Assembly: GCF_017355915.2 (NCBI RefSeq)
Contig: NZ_JAFEUV020000006.1
Span: forward strand, 248,001 to 312,000
Length of the DNA stretch: 64,000 nucleotides
Source of the DNA: Telluribacter roseus
Lineage (GTDB): Bacteria; Bacteroidota; Bacteroidia; Cytophagales; Spirosomataceae
Direction of reading: 5' to 3'
Made by a program: the position numbers and the translations under genes. How positions within the stretch are numbered: position 1 is the first letter of the stretch; the number at the start of each line of letters is the position of its first letter. This document shows positions 25,110 through 50,252 of the stretch, one piece after another. Under the pieces are notes generated by a model that ran no database searches, was not told the DNA's origin, and worked only from the letters and a program-made list of their open reading frames with translations.

Positions 25110-25194
<85 letters not shown>

Positions 25195-25195
25195 C

Positions 25196-25230: not shown

Positions 25231-25684
25231 TTTCTCGGATTACTTAGGTCTGGGCTCCTCTATAAATATCTTAGAATTTAATCAGTGACGTTATCTGTGT
25301 TGATTTTTCAATCTTCCAATTGTCCAAACCAAGTACTTTCCCAATATCTATTTAAGTACCTCCTGTACCTATATAAGTACTTATTAAATTCGGCCAGAAG
25401 CCCTTACCCGCTCAGCCTTCCAGAAGTTGACGAAATTTTTATTTAAATAAACAGCCTCCAGCGTCTTGAAAGCCACAAATTGAAATAATTTATTGATTAT
25501 GAGGGATATATATATATATACAATAGCGTAACTTTGTCATAGAGAAGTCTAAGACTTTCCATAGGACATTAGTTTCCTCATCGCCGACCGCACCTTGCAA
25601 GGTACCACTGACCATGATCGATCCTGACTAGAGCTGAGTAGTTCGATGTGGTTACCTTCACAAAACTCCTTCTCACCAGCTATT
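25231..25684. other. AT-rich gene-free region with (AT)n tract ahead of the receiver genes
   Basis: About 450 bp with no coding potential recognised. It contains a 15-base alternating AT tract (25506-25520) directly before the TAACTTTG box of the first receiver gene. The rest has no obvious repeats. Confidence 0.5.
25529..25536 (+). promoter_or_regulatory. -7 box TAACTTTG of first receiver gene
   Basis: TAACTTTG fits TAnnTTTG and is identical to the boxes before the second and fourth receiver genes. The expected TTG is replaced by an alternating AT tract. The start codon is 150 bases downstream, so the mRNA would have a long leader. Confidence 0.55.
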
Positions 25685-26113
25685 ATGGTCAAAAACATCT
25701 TTCTGATTGAAGATGATGAAACTACCATGCTTCTGCTGCGGAAAACTATTCTACGCTACAGCTTCGCGGAGAACATCATCGAGCTCAGGCACGGGAGGCA
25801 GGCTTTGGACTATCTGGAACAGATTATGAGCGGGCAGGAAGAATTAGCCCCGGACCTGATCATGCTGGATCTGGATATGCCCGTTATGGATGGATGGCAG
25901 TTTCTGGATGAGTATACCCGGCGGTATAAGCACCACTTTCCTCACACGCAGATATGCATACTGACTACATCTGATGATGAAGAGGAGTATCAGCGCGCCA
26001 AACAATACCCCATTGTTACTTATTTCCTGAAGAAACCTTGCTTCCTGTCTGATCTGGATCAGGTAAAACAACAGGTATTTCTGAAGTTGCTCAATAAAAA
26101 TACCGTCGGATAG
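25685..26113 (+). CDS. stand-alone receiver-domain response regulator (1)
   Basis: 142 residues from the ATG at 25685. A CheY-like receiver domain with no output domain: acidic pair in NIFLIEDDETTMLL (Asp10/11), phospho-acceptor Asp62 in PDLIMLDLDMPVMDGWQFLD, Thr in ICILTTSDDEE and Lys in YFLKKPCF. It is a close paralogue of the genes at 26234 and 28672, sharing the spacing, the LxxGxxAxxYxEQ region and the C-terminal motif. Single-domain receivers of this type act by protein-protein interaction or as phosphate sinks in phosphorelays. Confidence 0.92.
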   Translation: MVKNIFLIEDDETTMLLLRKTILRYSFAENIIELRHGRQALDYLEQIMSGQEELAPDLIMLDLDMPVMDGWQFLDEYTRRYKHHFPHTQICILTTSDDEEEYQRAKQYPIVTYFLKKPCFLSDLDQVKQQVFLKLLNKNTVG

Positions 26114-26190
26114 ATAGCCGTAGTAGCAACTATCCAATCAGGTACGTATACGTAATTATCGTCAAAAGGTAGGTAGGTGTATTACCAGTC

Positions 26191-26198
26191 TAACTTTG
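26191..26198 (+). promoter_or_regulatory. -7 box TAACTTTG of second receiver gene
   Basis: TAACTTTG, 36 bases upstream of the ATG at 26234, same box as for receivers 1 and 4. No convincing TTG at the -33 position. Confidence 0.55.
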
Positions 26199-26233
26199 AC
26201 AAAACAATACCTCTTACCTACTCCACCCCCTGC

Positions 26234-26662
26234 ATGATTAAAAGTCTTTACCTGGTAGAAGATGATGATATTACTTTGTCGCTTTTACGATGGATTATGA
26301 ACCGAGCCCATTTTGCTGAGCATGTGACCGAGTTCAGGAACGGAAAGCTGGCCTTTGAGTATATGGAACAGGTAGCTACGGGCCAGGCCGGACCAGCCCC
26401 CGATCTGATCCTGCTCGACCTGGATCTGCCCATCATGAATGGCTGGTTCTTTCTGGATCTGTATACCGAAAAGCTACGGCGGTACTTTCCCCAGACCAAA
26501 GTATGTATACTTACGGTATCCGACGATCCCGAGGATGAGCGGAGGGCTATGGAGTATCCGGTGGTAGGCAGCTTCTGGCGGAAGCCCCAGTTCATCAGGG
26601 ACATCGAGAAGTACAAGACCCATGAGAGCCTGAGGCACTTCTTTGAGAAGAAAACAGACTAG
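26234..26662 (+). CDS. stand-alone receiver-domain response regulator (2)
   Basis: 142 residues from the ATG at 26234. Acidic pocket YLVEDDDITL, phospho-acceptor Asp62 in PDLILLDLDLPIMNGWFFLD, Thr/Ser in VCILTVSDDPEDE and Lys in FWRKPQFI. No output domain. Paralogous to receiver 1 (26113 to 26234 gap 120 bp, same strand) and to receiver 4. The sequence CILTVSDDP recurs as CMITVSDDP in receiver 4. Confidence 0.92.
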   Translation: MIKSLYLVEDDDITLSLLRWIMNRAHFAEHVTEFRNGKLAFEYMEQVATGQAGPAPDLILLDLDLPIMNGWFFLDLYTEKLRRYFPQTKVCILTVSDDPEDERRAMEYPVVGSFWRKPQFIRDIEKYKTHESLRHFFEKKTD

Positions 26663-26686
26663 ATCATGCAGGCTCAGCCGCCGGTG

Positions 26687-27175
26687 CTACACCTCAGTAG
26701 TAGTGAAGAAGTGACTGGTGTTGGTAGAAAGAGCAGCCAGGGTTTGGCGCAGGATCCGGACGATTTCATTATACCCGTTGGGCTTTACTATGTACCCTAC
26801 CGCTCCCAACTCCCGGCAGGCTATGATGTCGCCGGGGTAGTTGCTTGTCGAGTAGATCACTATGGGTACCTCTCTGATCCGATGCACCTCTTTCAGCCTC
26901 TCCAGAATTATTTTGCCATTCAGCTGAGGGAGATTCAGGTCCAGGAAGATGTAGGATGGGGTAAAGCTTTCATCATTTTCCAGCCTTTGCAGGGCTGCGG
27001 TGCCGCTACTCTCTATAACCAGTTCAATGCCAGGATCAATGGCGGCTATAGCAGATTTAAAAAAATGATGATCATCATAATCATCATCAATGAAGTAGCA
27101 AACGGTATTCAAGGTATGGATAAGTTTATAATCTATCAGGTCATTCGGGGTTGCGACAAAAGTAGACACTATCAA
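26687..27175 (-). CDS. stand-alone receiver-domain response regulator (3, divergent)
   Basis: About 162 residues, on the - strand, convergent with receiver 2. It carries VCYFIDDDYDDHHFFKSAI (acidic pocket), phospho-acceptor Asp79 in SYIFLDLNLPQLNGKIILE, the switch Ser/Thr in PIVIYSTSNYPGD and Lys in GYIVKPNGYNE. It is of the common CheY-like single-domain class of Bacteroidota, distinct from the three close paralogues. The start is uncertain: only TTG (27175) or GTG (27169) fit in frame, and no ATG occurs before the first strand. The extra N-terminal 20 residues have no clear homology. Confidence 0.87.
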   Translation of the reverse strand: MIVSTFVATPNDLIDYKLIHTLNTVCYFIDDDYDDHHFFKSAIAAIDPGIELVIESSGTAALQRLENDESFTPSYIFLDLNLPQLNGKIILERLKEVHRIREVPIVIYSTSNYPGDIIACRELGAVGYIVKPNGYNEIVRILRQTLAALSTNTSHFFTTTEV

Positions 27176-27265
27176 CTAATTTGCGTGGTTTATTTTTAAA
27201 TTATTTTAATAATCTATCGGGTTGACACCGGTGAAGGGGTTACGCAGTGCTTCTCCTCTTCGAAT

Positions 27266-27300
27266 TAAAAGCTCCGGAACACCTGGTTCCGGAGCTTTTA
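27266..27300. terminator. strong bidirectional terminator-like hairpin
   Basis: A 15-bp perfect inverted repeat (TAAAAGCTCCGGAAC at 27266-27280, partner 27286-27300), loop ACCTG, with A/T tracts on both sides. It lies between receiver 3 (transcribed leftward from about 27175) and the small-protein genes (transcribed leftward); its position matches the end of the first small-protein transcript (27401). Confidence 0.85.
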
Positions 27301-27317
27301 CAGGTCTATACATAAGG

Positions 27318-27339
27318 TCTGCAGTCGTACGACTGCAGA
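27318..27339. promoter_or_regulatory. 22-bp perfect palindrome (possible operator)
   Basis: TCTGCAGTCGTACGACTGCA plus GA: a dyad with no loop (11 + 11), containing two PstI-type CTGCAG and a central GTCGTACGAC. The lack of loop and of a T-tract argues against a terminator. It is located between the terminator and the 3' end of the first small-protein gene. Confidence 0.4.
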
Positions 27340-27400
27340 TAGTATACGTCTCTTTTCCGTTTTTGTTTAGTTAAAGGAAACAGGTATGGGCTGGGAGCTT

Positions 27401-27631
27401 TTACTCCAGCTTCAGCAGAAAGCCCAGTTCTTCGAGTTGATTAACAATCCGTCTATCATCACGTTGGTCAATCTGCTCACCGTAAAACAGGAATACCCGA
27501 AGCGACAGGGAATCCAGGTACTTTTCCCATTGTCGGTTGGCGTCATAAAATGTCGAGTTCTTCAGGTCTCTTAGAACTTCCAGTGTAGAAGCTCCCGATA
27601 TGATCTTTCCATTTGCAGTTAGGTATCTCAT
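27401..27631 (-). CDS. small protein family, copy 1 (76 residues)
   Basis: 76 residues from the ATG at 27631, matched to the start of its paralogue (an upstream ATG at 27649 would add MKDVVK). Begins MRYLTANGKIISGASTLEVL, then RDLKNS, and ends QLEELGFLLKLE. It is one of three paralogues in tandem (27.4-28.4 kb). Shared pattern: strand-turn-strand start (MRYLTANGxIxSG), a helix with (D/E)xLKNS, a central amphipathic helix and a C-terminal LxxLLKxE/N. This small beta-beta-alpha layout resembles small phage- or plasmid-encoded proteins of the type MKYRTLxGxxLxGxxxxExV; function unknown. Isolated genes with their own promoters are suggested by the terminator upstream. Confidence 0.75.
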   Translation of the reverse strand: MRYLTANGKIISGASTLEVLRDLKNSTFYDANRQWEKYLDSLSLRVFLFYGEQIDQRDDRRIVNQLEELGFLLKLE

Positions 27632-27733
27632 CTTCACTACGTCTTTCATTACTACTAACTTACGACCTTGTATGTAACCGCTGTTGAAAGAATATGTTGG
27701 TAAAAAATTCTAATTTTTTTCTAATAAAATAAA

Positions 27734-27764
27734 ATTCCCCCGCCAGTAGCTCCAGCGGGGGAAT
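27734..27764 (-). terminator. rho-independent terminator of small-protein copy 2
   Basis: GC-rich stem ATTCCCCCGC (27734-27743) pairs with 27755-27764 around an 11-base loop. On the - strand the stem is followed by a T-rich tract. It separates copy 2 from copy 1, implying that each is its own transcription unit. Confidence 0.9.
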
Positions 27765-27805
27765 CTTGACTATATAAACCTTATACTCAAATTATTATCA
27801 ATACG

Positions 27806-28036
27806 CTACTCAATCCTTAGCAGCAGACCTGCCTCCTCCATGTGCTTAAGTAGCTGATGGTGACAGCATCGCTTGATCTCCTTATCAAAAAACCATTGGA
27901 TTCGCATCATCAGGTCTTCCAGGAAAGGGTCCATCGGAAGGTGTGCATCACTGGGCGACGAATTCTTCAACTCCTCCAGAATATCCCAGGGAGAATAGCC
28001 CGATAGTATAGTTCCGTTTGCTGTCAGGTATCGCAT
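27806..28036 (-). CDS. small protein family, copy 2 (76 residues)
   Basis: 76 residues. MRYLTANGTILSGYSPWDIL shares its first eight residues exactly with copy 1; ELKNSS, the helix PFLEDLMMRIQWFFDKEIK and the end HMEEAGLLLRIE align without gaps. A Cys-Cys-His-His cluster (KRCCHHQLLKH) is specific to this copy. Function unknown. It has its own terminator downstream and 160 bp of AT-rich DNA upstream. Confidence 0.75.
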   Translation of the reverse strand: MRYLTANGTILSGYSPWDILEELKNSSPSDAHLPMDPFLEDLMMRIQWFFDKEIKRCCHHQLLKHMEEAGLLLRIE

Positions 28037-28197
28037 CTGTCTCTGCCGTTGTCTCTCAAAGCACTAACGTTGCCTGCTTAAATATGTTTAAAAAAATCTT
28101 TGATTTATTAAATCGTTGTAATTTTTTAGTGAAAGGAGGAGCAGAGTACTTCCTGCCTGCAAGTGCTTGTATTGAAGCAAAGAAATAGAAGGCCGTA

Positions 28198-28422
28198 CTA
28201 GTTGATTTTGAGCAGGTAAGCCTGGTCGAGCAACTGCTCGAGTATTTCGTTGGGGTCCTGCGAGCTGATGCTGATGCAGTAGTGGGTATGGAGGTAGCTG
28301 GCAAACTGGTCCAGAAAAACCTCCATGTCGGCTCCGGAGCAGAAGTCGTTCCTGATTTGCATCAGCACTTCCTCAGACGTATGGCCCTCAAATACGGTAC
28401 CGGTTAGTGAAACAAACTTCAT
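28198..28422 (-). CDS. small protein family, copy 3 (74 residues, divergent)
   Basis: 74 residues: MKFVSLTGTVFEGHTSEEVL, MQIRNDF, the helix VFLDQFASYLHTHY and the end EQLLDQAYLLKIN. It keeps the pattern of copies 1 and 2 (M-K/R-F/Y, a TG turn, GxTSxEVL helix, C-terminal LLK-hydrophobic-N/E) but only about a quarter of positions are identical. It ends with a stop followed by 160 bp before copy 2. A -7 box TATTTTTG lies just upstream (28453-28446). Confidence 0.72.
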   Translation of the reverse strand: MKFVSLTGTVFEGHTSEEVLMQIRNDFCSGADMEVFLDQFASYLHTHYCISISSQDPNEILEQLLDQAYLLKIN

Positions 28423-28445
28423 CGCTCAGATAAGTAGAACTAGAA

Positions 28446-28453
28446 CAAAAATA
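28446..28453 (-). promoter_or_regulatory. -7 box TATTTTTG for small-protein copy 3
   Basis: On the - strand TATTTTTG fits TAnnTTTG, 24 bases upstream of the ATG (28422). A TTG is present 15 bases further upstream (28471-28469), shorter than the usual spacing. Confidence 0.45.
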
Positions 28454-28591
28454 GCAGTTTTGTTGAATCAAAAGTAAACATAATTCCGTTAGTAAAGTAA
28501 TTAATACCGACGGACTGTCTACCTGTACCAGGTGTGGCATATCTGGAGCCGAAAATCCAGCATATATGATTATTAGGTACTACGAAGTAGG

Positions 28592-28618
28592 TTGCTATGG
28601 CAATAGCATGTAACTTTG
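28592..28618 (+). promoter_or_regulatory. promoter with TAACTTTG for receiver 4
   Basis: TTG (28592-28594), 16 bases, TAACTTTG (28611-28618), 53 bases before the ATG at 28672. The -7 box is identical to those of receivers 1 and 2; the TTG spacing is shorter than the canonical 19-21. Confidence 0.6.
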
Positions 28619-28671
28619 TGAACAATATTGTTGATATTTGTATAGACACCAATAAATGCCCTCTTTAGACT

Positions 28672-29088
28672 ATGATAAATAATCTGCTGATCATTGAAGA
28701 TGAAGAAGATACCGTCGGTATACTGAAGCGATTGTTGTCTGCTAACCATTTTGCCAAGAATATCCACGTGCTCCGGAACGGGAAAGAGGGGGTTGATTAC
28801 TTTGAGGCACTCGCTGCAGATAAGAATGGCACGGCCCCGGAGCTGGTTCTGCTGGATATATATATGCCCGAAATGACCGGATGGGATTTTCTGGACTGGT
28901 TTACCTACCGTTATAAGAATGATTTTCCTAATACGAGTGTATGTATGATCACGGTATCCGACGACCCGCAGTACCAGCAGCGGGCTTCGCGTTACTCCTG
29001 CGTAGTAGAGCTGATTCAGAAGCCCCTCTCCAGGCAACACCTGTCGTACCTTCGCAATTTCCAGATACACCGTAAGCGCCTGTACTAG
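28672..29088 (+). CDS. stand-alone receiver-domain response regulator (4)
   Basis: 138 residues. LLIIEDEEDTVGI (acidic pocket), phospho-acceptor Asp62 in PELVLLDIYMPEMTGWDFLD, CMITVSDDPQYQQ (switch Thr/Ser) and LIQKPLSRQHL (Lys). No output domain. It is paralogous to receivers 1 and 2 (identical placing of all signature residues, the same YFEALAA/YLEQIM helix and VxDDP loop). It precedes the five-PAS protein by 290 bp on the same strand. Confidence 0.92.
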   Translation: MINNLLIIEDEEDTVGILKRLLSANHFAKNIHVLRNGKEGVDYFEALAADKNGTAPELVLLDIYMPEMTGWDFLDWFTYRYKNDFPNTSVCMITVSDDPQYQQRASRYSCVVELIQKPLSRQHLSYLRNFQIHRKRLY

Positions 29089-29378
29089 CAGGGGAGGCCC
29101 GGTACTATATTCGCTCCTGCCTTTTCTTCGTCTCTTCCACCCGTTTTTATTACTGCCTCCTACTTTTTTTGGTACGATGGTTGTACTGGCTGGTGTACCT
29201 GGCCGGAATAAATATATCCTGTCAGCATAGGGTAGATTAGCTCTGGTACCACTTGTATAATAACTACGAATACCGAAGATCACGAATTGATACACAGAGG
29301 AGGCTCCGGCATACCTCTGGAAACAACCTCTGTCCATACCGGAAGAGTTTAGCATTGGCGTATATGTAATTATTTTTC

Positions 29379-31700
29379 ATGCTTCGGATTCCCCTCAGAA
29401 TTTCGCTTATCTACTTTATAGTAGGGACGACCTGGATAGTAACCACGGATTTACTGCTGCATTTTGTGTTTCAGATTGATCGGGGACTAACGGTGGCTAT
29501 TGCCAAAGGATTGCTGTTTGTGACGGTCAGCTCGCTGTTGCTCTACCTGCTGTCCAGGAGAAACTACCGTCAACTAAGCCAGTCGGAAAAGCAGTACCGG
29601 GCCCTGTTCGAAAACAACCCTTCGCCCACCTGGATCTACAAGCTATCCGATCTGCGGTTTCTGGCGGTCAATGACGCGGCCGTACAGAAGTACGGTTACA
29701 GCCAGGAGGAGTTTCTGAGCATGACCTGCCTGGAGCTTCGTCCCCCCGAGGAGATGGAGCGCTTCTTGAATTTTGTGGGTACCTACCAACAGGAGTACAT
29801 GTCGGCCGGAACGTGGCGCCACCTGTTAAAAAACGGTCAGACCATATACACGACGATCAATACCTACCCGGTGGACTTTGACGGGGAGGAGGCCGCGCTG
29901 GTGATAGCCCAAGATATTACCAAACAAATAGAAAAGGAACGGGAAGCCGAACAGAAGAACCAGGAGCTGGAAAAACTCAACGAAAAGCTCCTTGAGAAGC
30001 GCGAACGGCTCCGGTACGTTCAGAAGCTGGCTAAGGTAGCCGGCTGGGAGTACTACCCCGACGAGGACCAGCTGGTGGGAGCGGATGAGATCCTGTCGCT
30101 GTTCAGCCACGAAGACCAGGGGGCGCTTACCTACGCCGAACTGTTTGAGGCCATTGTACCGGAAGATCTGCCCCGGGTACTCAGAGCCAATAAGCAACTG
30201 CTGCGGACAGGGCAGAAAACGGAGGTATCGTACCGGATCAGGTGGGAGGAGCAGATCCGGTACCTGCGGCAGGTGGGCGAGGCCGACCTGCTGGATGGGG
30301 AGCGGATACTGCGGGGCATGGTACAGGACGTAACGGCCATGAAGAAGATGGAGGACGAGCGCGACCAGGTCGGAAGTACCCTGAGACGCACCCTGGACAG
30401 TATTACCGATGGCGTGATCGAACTGGACAGAACCTGGCGGGTAACCCGCATCAACAAAGCCTTTGAAAGACTACTGGACATAGAGGCCGGTAACGTAGTG
30501 GGCCTGGCCGTGCTGGATGTATTTCCGGATGCGGTATCGCTCAGGTCCTATCCGGAGTATACCAATGCCATGGAGAAGGGCAGCGTGAGCCGGTTTGAAG
30601 AGTACTATGCTGGCCGGGACAAGTGGTTCTTTGTGACGGTGATACCTACGCAGGAGGGTATAGCGGCGTATTTTCAGGATATTACAGAGCGTAAAAAACA
30701 CGAGGAGCAGGCGCGTATATGGCTACACCGTTATGAGTCGGTGGCCAAAGCTACCCGTGAGGCCATCTTTGATTTTGACCTCACTACCATGATCCTGGTC
30801 TGGAACCAGGGGCTCGAGCGGATATACGGCTACGGGCCGGAGTATCACGAAACTCCCCTGAGCTGGTGGGAGGAAAGGGTGCATCCGGACGACCGGCATA
30901 GAGCCAGTAAGAGTTTGAATGAGGGGATCAGCAACGGGTCCACCTTCTGGAGTGAACAGTACCGGTTCAGGTGCGCCAATGGTGTCTATAAATACGTCGA
31001 AGACAGCGGCCACATTATTTTTGACAGTAATCAGGAGGCCGTACGCATGATCGGCTCCCTGCGGGATATTGATGATCTCACCAGGGCCAATGCCGAGAAT
31101 AAACGACTGGCCGAGATCATTACCAAAGTGAATAACGTGGTCGTAATTACGGATGTGGAAGGACGGATCAACTACATTAACCCGAGGTTTACGGAAGTAA
31201 CGGGCTACACCTTTGAGGAGGTAGCGGGCCGGAAGCCCGGCGAGGTACTGCAGGGGCCGGAGTCAGATCTGGAGGTGGTCCGCCACATGGGTGAATCGCT
31301 CCGCGAGCGGCAGTACTTTTCGGTCGAGATCATCAACTATACCAAAGACGGACGTAAGTACTGGATGCATGTTGACTGTACCCCCATCTACGACGACTTT
31401 GGCAACCACCAGGGATTCATCGCCATCCAGAACGAAGTTACCGAGCGCAAAGAGAAAGAAGTGCTGCTGCAGGAACACGTTAGGGTACTCAAGGAAATAT
31501 CCTGGCTGAACTCCCACGAGATCCGACGTCCGGTTACGGAGATTATGGGCCTGATGTACCTGATCAAGGATACGGACTGCGACGAGGAGAAGAATGAACT
31601 GTACGGGCTGGTCAACGAAGCGGCCCATAATCTGGACCGGATTGTACGCGAAGTAGCGGTAAAGGCCTACTCTCTGTACGGCGAAAAAGGATTCAGCTAA
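29379..31700 (+). CDS. membrane-bound multi-PAS sensor with H-box but no ATPase domain
   Basis: 773 residues. Two N-terminal membrane helices (SLIYFIVGTTWIVTTDLLL and LLFVTVSSLLLYLLS, about residues 9-60) are followed by about five PAS domains (roughly 73-190, 210-325, 330-440, 450-570, 575-695; seen in KQYRALFENNPSPTWIYK, SNQEAVRMIGSLRDI, ITKVNNVVVITDVEGRINYI and TERKEKEVLLQ). The end is SWLNSHEIRRPVTEIMGLMY (His713, HisKA-like H-box) and about 60 further residues, then the stop. The HATPase_c domain with its N, G1 and G2 boxes is absent and does not occur immediately downstream. It may be a kinase remnant or a phosphotransfer partner for receivers in the neighbourhood. Confidence 0.88.
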   Translation: MLRIPLRISLIYFIVGTTWIVTTDLLLHFVFQIDRGLTVAIAKGLLFVTVSSLLLYLLSRRNYRQLSQSEKQYRALFENNPSPTWIYKLSDLRFLAVNDAAVQKYGYSQEEFLSMTCLELRPPEEMERFLNFVGTYQQEYMSAGTWRHLLKNGQTIYTTINTYPVDFDGEEAALVIAQDITKQIEKEREAEQKNQELEKLNEKLLEKRERLRYVQKLAKVAGWEYYPDEDQLVGADEILSLFSHEDQGALTYAELFEAIVPEDLPRVLRANKQLLRTGQKTEVSYRIRWEEQIRYLRQVGEADLLDGERILRGMVQDVTAMKKMEDERDQVGSTLRRTLDSITDGVIELDRTWRVTRINKAFERLLDIEAGNVVGLAVLDVFPDAVSLRSYPEYTNAMEKGSVSRFEEYYAGRDKWFFVTVIPTQEGIAAYFQDITERKKHEEQARIWLHRYESVAKATREAIFDFDLTTMILVWNQGLERIYGYGPEYHETPLSWWEERVHPDDRHRASKSLNEGISNGSTFWSEQYRFRCANGVYKYVEDSGHIIFDSNQEAVRMIGSLRDIDDLTRANAENKRLAEIITKVNNVVVITDVEGRINYINPRFTEVTGYTFEEVAGRKPGEVLQGPESDLEVVRHMGESLRERQYFSVEIINYTKDGRKYWMHVDCTPIYDDFGNHQGFIAIQNEVTERKEKEVLLQEHVRVLKEISWLNSHEIRRPVTEIMGLMYLIKDTDCDEEKNELYGLVNEAAHNLDRIVREVAVKAYSLYGEKGFS

Positions 31701-48368: not shown

Positions 48369-50252
48369 CTACTCCTGAAAGCTGATCTGGACATCCGGGG
48401 CCAGATCCAGAGTGGCCCCTTCTTTTACTTCCAGACTGCGCATATGTATGGTACCTGTATCTATCGTGATGCTATGGCCTGCCTCTATGATTACCTGATC
48501 CTTAGAGGTAGGTACGCAGTTACACGACCAGGTAGCGGGGGCGCTCCAGCTCCCGGAGGCTACGGAACTGATCAGTGGACGTGGTACAATCGTAACGGCA
48601 TAGTCCTCGGTTTCACCGTATTCATACGCCGAACACGGCTCGACTGGGCTCTGATTGTACTGCAGCCGTACCCGGAGCCGGGTAGTACCGGTAGGTGCCT
48701 GATCCGGAATGTTGAATGAGCCAGTCAGTACGGCATCTGCACTGACAAATACTAGCTTATATACCATCTCTTCCGGCTCGAACAACTGATTGTTGTTAAA
48801 GTCCAGCCAGAGCGTGATTCCCTCCCGGTACCTGCCCGGATGCCGTAGTGTAAAGCTGTAGGTATACCCCTGACTAAGTGATGGTGGTGACACGGAGGTG
48901 GTATAGTCGCTGTATCCGTTGGGGGAGCAGCTACTGGTATGGCTCAGCAGGCTGGTACCGTTATGGAGGATCGAAAAGTTACTGATTACGTCATCGTCAT
49001 TACAGTTGGTACTGCCAGGGATGCAGTAACAGTACGTAACCGAAGCGTCAAACGCGACGGTTACGGGAGTGCTATAGACGGCACTGGCATTGGCCGCCAC
49101 GACCCGGTAGTAGTAGACCCGGCTCGGATCAGCTACCACCTCCCTGTCGGTATACTGAGAGGAGTTGGCGGCTACCTTGCCTACGGCAACAAAGTTACCA
49201 TCCGGGCGGGTAGACCTTTCGATGATATATCCGCCTTCGTCACTGGCCTCATCCGTCCAGTTCAGCGTAATTGAGCAGTTTTGATAAAGGGCCGTTAGCT
49301 GGGAAGGAGCCGGTGCTTCCGGTTGGCATACCAGCTTATAGGTACCATGCTGTTCAGTTAAAAGCATCCGGTAGAGATATCCTTCGTGCATCCGGCCCAG
49401 CTGCCCTTCCGTGAAGCGGTTTCGGCAGCTATGGTAGTACGACATCAGGTTCCGGAGGTCCGGGCTGTATAGTTCGCCCCTAGCGTCCCGGTGTTCGGTA
49501 TCGGTATAGGTACAGGTTCTGGGGTCGTAGGTACTATAACGGTCGGCGGGGGTATCACAGAGCAGATCACCGGCCGTTGTGCAGTTGGCTCCCTCACCGC
49601 GGGTTACGAGTTCTTCACCCAGGCTGGTTTCGTGCGTGTGCAGCAAGCTCCAGTAGTGGCCCATTTCGTGAGCGAGGGTAGAGCCATTAGAGGTAGCGTG
49701 GTTGTACATGATAATCCGGTTTTCGCGCGGATCGCTGCTCGGGAACGCTGAAATCCCGTTGATGGGAGACCCTCCGTAGTTGACATTATTACAGAAGTAG
49801 ATGTTGATGGCGTCGTTGACATTGTGCAGGGTTAGCCTGGCGTCGTCCGTCAGCACCTCGCAGTCGGCCAGATCATCGTCATCAATATAGTGAATAGGGC
49901 CGCATAGGTAAAACTGCATGTGTAGGGGCTGGTACTGGGCATTCATGGTAGCTAGCGCACTGTTGAGTGCCTCGACGGAAAGCCCTCCGGTGCCGTTTTG
50001 TTTTCTGACAATATGCGCCTTGATGGGTATCTGTACGGTAGGGTACTCTTCGGTACTACGGCCTTGCTTCTTTTTTTTCTTTACCGCGTCCTCCATCTTT
50101 TTCACCTTATCGGGGGCAGGAGGCTCTGTGCCACAGTCACGGGGGAGCTGCTCGACCGTAGATTTCTTTTTCTGAGCCATGACTTGCCCGGCCCATTCAA
50201 TACTCACAATCCAAAACACAGCCAGTAAGGCAAGTAAACGTACTTTCATCAC
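48369..50252 (-). CDS. secreted M43 (pappalysin/cytophagalysin-type) zinc metalloprotease with FN3 and GEVED domains
   Basis: 627 residues with a signal peptide (LLALLAVFWIVSIEWAGQVM, ending AQ). The zinc motif HEMGHYWSLLHTHE (His195, Glu196, His199, His205) and the downstream CDTPADRYS define a M43B-type peptidase. A fibronectin type III domain follows (about 310-405; SITLNWTDEASDEGGYIIER), then a GEVED domain (about 410-560; GITLWLDFNNNQLFEPEE, EPCSAYEYGETEDYAVTIV) and a C-terminal G8-like Trp/Cys-rich segment (SWSAPATWSCNCVPTSKDQV). No Por-type sorting domain is seen at the end, so the secretion route is uncertain. The convergent polX stop lies 4 bp away. Confidence 0.92.
   Translation of the reverse strand: MMKVRLLALLAVFWIVSIEWAGQVMAQKKKSTVEQLPRDCGTEPPAPDKVKKMEDAVKKKKKQGRSTEEYPTVQIPIKAHIVRKQNGTGGLSVEALNSALATMNAQYQPLHMQFYLCGPIHYIDDDDLADCEVLTDDARLTLHNVNDAINIYFCNNVNYGGSPINGISAFPSSDPRENRIIMYNHATSNGSTLAHEMGHYWSLLHTHETSLGEELVTRGEGANCTTAGDLLCDTPADRYSTYDPRTCTYTDTEHRDARGELYSPDLRNLMSYYHSCRNRFTEGQLGRMHEGYLYRMLLTEQHGTYKLVCQPEAPAPSQLTALYQNCSITLNWTDEASDEGGYIIERSTRPDGNFVAVGKVAANSSQYTDREVVADPSRVYYYRVVAANASAVYSTPVTVAFDASVTYCYCIPGSTNCNDDDVISNFSILHNGTSLLSHTSSCSPNGYSDYTTSVSPPSLSQGYTYSFTLRHPGRYREGITLWLDFNNNQLFEPEEMVYKLVFVSADAVLTGSFNIPDQAPTGTTRLRVRLQYNQSPVEPCSAYEYGETEDYAVTIVPRPLISSVASGSWSAPATWSCNCVPTSKDQVIIEAGHSITIDTGTIHMRSLEVKEGATLDLAPDVQISFQE

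Follow-up and report, generated by a model that had tools for sequence, protein, structure and literature searches.

The window analysed here, 64,000 nucleotides of the soil bacterium Telluribacter roseus (contig NZ_JAFEUV020000006.1, positions 248,001 to 312,000; contig C6 of the genome coded G000), carries, after purL and a tRNA-Ser gene, four genes of single-domain receivers (R1 to R4) together with three small open reading frames (ORFs) on the minus strand (W1 to W3), followed by a gene for a membrane protein with PAS domains (Table 1). T. humicola (G001) supplies the second Telluribacter genome of our sample. The four lone receivers and the three tandem paralogues of 74–76 residues described in an earlier note on this sequence are indeed present: R1 to R4 have no domain over the Pfam cut-off besides PF00072 and no output domain, and W1, W2 and W3 are true paralogues of one another which are conserved in T. 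humicola. The small proteins were found to belong to a family whose members are encoded beside amidoligases (PF12224) in phages and prophages. In Telluribacter, their genes have lost this partner, are amplified and lie next to lone receiver genes more often than expected by chance.

Table 1 Features of the purL-tRNA-Ser locus in the window (dN/dS, ratio of nonsynonymous to synonymous substitution rates; pLDDT, predicted local distance difference test)
Feature	Positions	Strand	Evidence
tRNA-Ser(TGA) adjoining purL, left border of the island	25110..25195	+	ARAGORN
TAACTTTG, −7 promoter box	25529..25536	+	fits the TAnnTTTG sigma-A consensus
R1, single-domain receiver, clade A; T. humicola orthologue exists	25685..26113	+	PF00072 E 1.3e-14; dN/dS 0.18
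TAACTTTG, −7 promoter box	26191..26198	+	motif search
R2, single-domain receiver, clade A, sister of R1	26234..26662	+	PF00072 E 1.9e-12
R3, single-domain receiver, clade B	26687..27175	-	PF00072 E 9.8e-14; dN/dS 0.15; receiver tree
W1, small protein of 76 residues (annotatable as 82 residues from 27649), phage amidoligase-companion family	27401..27631	-	profile matches; pLDDT 94.5; dN/dS 0.11
W2, small protein of 76 residues, phage amidoligase-companion family	27806..28036	-	profile matches; 84% identical to T. humicola orthologue
W3, small protein of 74 residues, divergent subgroup of the companion family	28198..28422	-	profile E 2.1e-23 (W3 included in the profile); independent profile E 1.3e-7; dN/dS 0.13
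TAACTTTG, −7 promoter box	28611..28618	+	motif search
R4, single-domain receiver, clade A	28672..29088	+	PF00072 E 8.3e-14; dN/dS 0.11
Membrane PAS protein, about five PAS domains (by domain spacing), HisKA-like end, no HATPase; genus-specific	29379..31700	+	Pfam; dN/dS 0.10

None of the three small proteins gave a match over the cut-off in Pfam, NCBIfam or PHROGs. The assignment of W3 to DNA_pol3_gamma3 (18.9 bits against a cut-off of 24.4) was rejected, its paralogues having no such match. Profile searches, which the earlier note had suggested, provided the link to the phage amidoligase companions. A profile built from the Telluribacter copies matched nine times in G000 and 13 times in T. 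humicola, fragments counted, and once or twice in each of 13 other genomes of the bacterial family; in a sample of 296 Bacteroidota genomes, no companion small protein was found apart from those of the window's own genome. The Telluribacter-only profile reached the outgroup copies with E-values down to 2.4e-17, and an outgroup-only profile recovered W1 to W3 at E-values of 1e-7 to 1e-14. The comparison of the two profiles by hhalign resulted in a probability of 99.6 over 76 of 76 columns.

At nine of the 15 loci outside Telluribacter, an amidoligase gene lies directly 5′ of the small gene, with a gap of 0–5 nt and in prophage-like surroundings; two of these outgroup amidoligases were checked by Pfam and matched PF12224 with E-values of 4.9e-42 and 1.9e-39. 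The amidoligase was also used as the bait in the viral search of IMG/VR, because the family-wide alignment of the small proteins was too diverse and a single-protein viral scan with the small protein had given no match. An adjoining small gene was detected at 24 of the 38 amidoligase loci (15 of the 24 at E < 1e-9), four of the contigs not being independent because their small proteins are identical to those of genomic loci already counted. In Porphyromonas gingivalis phage019b, the small gene overlaps the amidoligase gene, and the two are annotated as 'hypothetical protein' and 'amidoligase enzyme', respectively. Similarly, a diverged relative of the small protein follows the amidoligase in Bacillus phage 035JT001, and another is encoded in Geobacillus phage GR1 just past a gamma-glutamylcyclotransferase gene which adjoins the amidoligase gene. 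After the phage019b pair (L071, 3992-4952) come a HicA/HicB pair and, at a greater distance, a gene annotated as an anti-CRISPR candidate.

The Telluribacter small proteins are homologous to the hypothetical proteins adjoining the amidoligases (Amidoligase_2) of these three phage modules but, in contrast to them, are encoded without an amidoligase, in many copies and beside receivers. None of the Telluribacter copies examined, those of the window included, has an amidoligase gene directly 5′ of the small gene. Both Telluribacter genomes yielded one amidoligase each, in neither case at a small-gene locus. That of G000 (G000:C5:10741) is of another subtype and adjoins a glutamine-amidotransferase-like gene; the phage (helix-turn-helix-linked) type was not found in G000.

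The tRNA-Ser(TGA) gene beside purL is kept in T. humicola and in three further genomes (G003, G004 and G005). In the relative G003, it harbours a prophage-like element of 44.8 kb (G003:C32:181104-225908; L174-L176), the ends of which are formed by a 23-bp direct repeat of the tRNA-Ser 3′ end (181104-181126 and 225886-225908). A gene which by eye resembles a recombinase gene comes after this tRNA-Ser, and the amidoligase and small genes are located inside the element at 214571-215739. Similar elements occur at a tRNA-Ser (L058) and a tRNA-Lys (L059); at a tRNA-Arg (L060), a small gene is accompanied by a recombinase-like gene. The Telluribacter genes share this kind of site: the cluster in the window is 2.2 kb from the tRNA-Ser, another small gene is 199 nt from a tRNA-Glu, and three of the seven G000 small-gene loci are at most 3.2 kb from a tRNA gene (P 0.001). 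At two loci (L042 in G000:C5 and L047 in G001:C21), a receiver and a small gene lie among two or three tRNA-Glu(TTC) copies, as would be expected from repeated integration rebuilding the tRNA. Descent of the window cluster from an element integrated at the bordering tRNA-Ser is suggested by these sites, and a phage origin of the small proteins is very probable.

The small proteins are, in all likelihood, also functional in their present host. Comparison with the T. humicola orthologues revealed purifying selection on W1 and W3, whereas dS was saturated for W2 (dN 0.09), and the ratios of about 0.1 are like those of the receiver and PAS genes. Many of the copies end in a conserved Leu/Val-Glu, which the majority of phage members do not retain. 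A receiver and a small gene moving recently as one transposing unit was rejected because the different small loci have no extended flanking DNA in common; the exceptions are orthologous loci and one copy with short matching stretches. The AlphaFold model of W1 is compact (mean pLDDT 94.5), with the order strand-strand-helix-helix-helix-helix-strand. In the PDB, nothing credible was found for the W1 family by sequence, and by fold no Foldseek match had E < 1.9; the best second look (Z 3.5, the anti-CRISPR protein AcrIIA15) was too weak and was not used. The best fold matches in BFVD were uncharacterised viral proteins (probability 1.00, template modelling (TM) score 0.71–0.78, E 0.004–0.01).

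The receivers of the window are similar to the single-domain response regulators of the CheY, DivK and MrrA type (PF00072) in the receiver fold, the catalytic residues and the missing output domain, and their phosphorylation residues (acidic pocket, phospho-acceptor Asp, Thr/Ser and Lys) are intact. In contrast to those regulators, the Telluribacter receivers fall in two lineage-expanded clades without known targets. Three of them had been taken for close paralogues. This applies to R1 and R2, which are sisters, but the similarity among the receivers is only about 45%, R4 is no nearer to R1 and R2 than to receivers elsewhere in G000 (46% to one such), and R3 belongs to a different clade of the receiver tree from the other three. 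An 80-bp part of R1 around the phospho-acceptor (25846-25925) exhibited 90% DNA identity to a receiver gene on another contig (L043, 6346-6425), although the two genes are otherwise far more diverged, which suggests gene conversion.

Synteny with T. humicola extends to R1, R3 and R4, to all three small genes and to the PAS gene; R2 is absent from the T. humicola locus, which contains two different receivers and one more small gene, the fourth. There are 105 receiver domains in G000, 45 of them in frames of less than 200 aa, and four of the seven small-gene loci lie at most 700 nt from a lone receiver, as against 1.3% expected by position (P about 1e-6, a value which assumes uniform positions and is too small if both gene families favour plastic regions). 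The co-occurrence of receiver and small genes proposed in the earlier note is thus above chance inside the genus. In T. humicola, receiver adjacency recurs at the orthologous positions and, in addition, at two loci of other position. The small-linked receivers do not form one clade: the tree requires six label changes, compared with 6.7 in shuffles, and at least three of them are forced by supported branches. This scatter rules out the co-duplication of a single receiver-small pair and means that the association either arose repeatedly or was kept selectively. Dozens of lone receivers have no small gene beside them. Outside the genus the small genes do without lone receivers, an outcome which the earlier note had itself counted against its proposal: none of the 15 outgroup loci has a lone receiver near the small gene.

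Some of the neighbouring signalling genes differ from this pattern. One orthologous receiver of T. humicola is not in the Pfam list and its phosphorylation residues are degenerate. A conserved pseudo-receiver lies next to a small gene in both species (L041, 6560-6988 in G000:C3; L049, 6142-6567 in G001:C23); its phospho-acceptor Asp is replaced by Asn in G000 and by Ser in T. humicola and its acidic pocket is degenerate. At L044 and L041, small genes adjoin clusters of CheB-, CheR-like, receiver and kinase genes, instead of or besides a lone receiver. The only other signalling context seen outside the genus is L057 (G193:C4), where a diverged small gene has a hybrid kinase-like gene beside it and, at a distance of 137 nt, a complete response regulator of 252 aa which looks LytTR-like.

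The PAS protein shares with PAS sensor histidine kinases a pair of hydrophobic helices at the N terminus (by eye), a series of PAS domains and a HisKA-like end with an H-box. It differs from them in that Pfam found no HATPase domain, HATPase_c included, and in that its HisKA match (residues 712-759, E 4.5e-5) reached 23.9 bits, below the cut-off of 26.9. The earlier description of an H-box protein without HATPase is confirmed, with the HisKA match itself at sub-threshold level. The T. humicola orthologue has the same type of ending, also without HATPase, and the ending is therefore not an assembly break. No close match to the protein was found among the other genera sampled. It is more likely a sensory, docking or His-phosphotransfer partner than an autonomous kinase. 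Partners of the anti-anti-sigma kind had also been considered, but the eight proteins gave no STAS, RsbW-like or sigma-like match in Pfam. The box TAACTTTG, previously noticed as identical at three of the receivers, is present there, and a fourth copy lies at 49190. It is not a private signal, since in Bacteroidota TAnnTTTG serves the housekeeping sigma factor generally as its −7 box (PMC9723704), and its number is not unusual (four in the window compared with 2.0 expected; at least four in 13 of 100 shuffles). A role as a special regulon box was ruled out on both grounds.

The reading which we prefer is that of a domesticated family of phage amidoligase companions, amplified in Telluribacter, whose members act together with the neighbouring lone receivers; as a whole, we give it an even chance. 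The ancestor is very probably a phage protein encoded directly after the phage amidoligase (PF12224), and prophages with this module enter tRNA genes, in one relative exactly this tRNA-Ser. Telluribacter has lost the phage amidoligase but retained the small gene, which multiplied and spread, preferentially next to genes of single-domain receivers. These steps and the purifying selection are well supported by the results above, whereas the function of the small proteins is an inference. They may be protein-binding modules which serve as output adaptors or sinks for the neighbouring receivers, and the latter presumably obtain their phosphoryl groups in trans from orphan kinases. A physical partnership of small proteins and receivers is possible but doubtful. 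It is rather unlikely that the small proteins are multi-copy receiver-binding adaptors derived from the phage companion, with each copy the output or the brake of the lone receiver beside it.

Several observations weigh against this reading. Besides the uniform positions assumed in the neighbourhood probability, small genes and receivers are found on the same strand, divergent or convergent, so that co-transcription is not the rule, and each Telluribacter genome has at least two small loci that are not near a receiver. A search of the window for a 3′ copy of the tRNA-Ser repeat (an attR remnant) gave none within three mismatches, which means that an element, if ever present here, has decayed. 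W1 and R3 were folded as a single chain because both happen to share one frame. This pseudo-fusion (stop codons read as Gly, an unpaired shallow alignment without clade A receivers, no interface score) gave a predicted TM score of 0.49, with two separately folded domains and a disordered linker; it lends no support to a W1-R3 contact and is little evidence against one. The small proteins as partners of the receivers, as envisaged in the earlier note, thus have in their favour an above-chance neighbourhood at several loci with separate associations, but no predicted contact.

A serious rival is a passive neighbourhood, in which plastic spots such as tRNA sites would gather phage remnants and duplicated lone receivers while the small proteins keep an unrelated host function. 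The island adjoins the tRNA-Ser used for integration in relatives, a second small locus lies beside tRNA-Glu, and the closeness of small-gene loci to tRNA genes, the mixed orientations and the differences in copy number and receiver content between two close species all agree with it. However, two of the four receiver-adjacent G000 loci are 62 kb and 135 kb from any tRNA gene, and every receiver-adjacent G000 copy is intact in both species, as against two broken copies among those without a receiver (small numbers); we consider passive gathering unlikely. A decoy defence, in which host copies bind or poison the amidoligase of phages entering the cell, would account for the amplification of the copies as well as for their diversification and turnover. 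The phage origin, the lineage-specific amplification to nine and 13 matches with broken copies among them and the absence of the cognate phage amidoligase from the host are in its favour, but the closeness to receivers and the strong purifying selection on orthologues would be left unexplained and no defence genes were seen beside the small-gene copies, which makes it quite improbable.

The tight coupling of the small gene and the amidoligase gene in phages could also mean that the small protein is the substrate of the enzyme, a tag which in the host would be modified by the remaining amidoligase. We know of no substrate identified for the phage amidoligase modules; amidoligases have reportedly been predicted to be ATP-dependent amide-forming enzymes, which would suit such a role, as would the many copies with the conserved Leu/Val-Glu end. 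This end is, however, missing from most phage members, and the host amidoligase is of another subtype and near no small gene; the substrate role is thus very unlikely. An equally slight chance is given to a dedicated stress circuit in which the four receivers, three adaptors and the PAS protein are one system. The synteny with T. humicola and the purifying selection on all the shared genes speak for it, but the receiver and small-gene content varies between the species, small genes and receivers are paired at several other places without the PAS gene, and the arrangement is not conserved past the genus. The 'undescribed signalling island' of the earlier note consequently survives as an adjacency of receivers and small genes above chance in the genus, not as a dedicated circuit.

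With these results, a family without annotation (no Pfam, NCBIfam or clear PHROG match) gains a testable identity as a regular part of phage amidoligase modules. Telluribacter provides a concrete case of a phage gene which was parted from its enzyme, amplified and held by selection in a bacterial chromosome. Lone receivers lack an output domain and, to our knowledge, few of their targets have been identified in Bacteroidota. If the link to the receivers is true, the small proteins would be candidate outputs for them, and a layer of signalling in these bacteria would have been built from a phage part.

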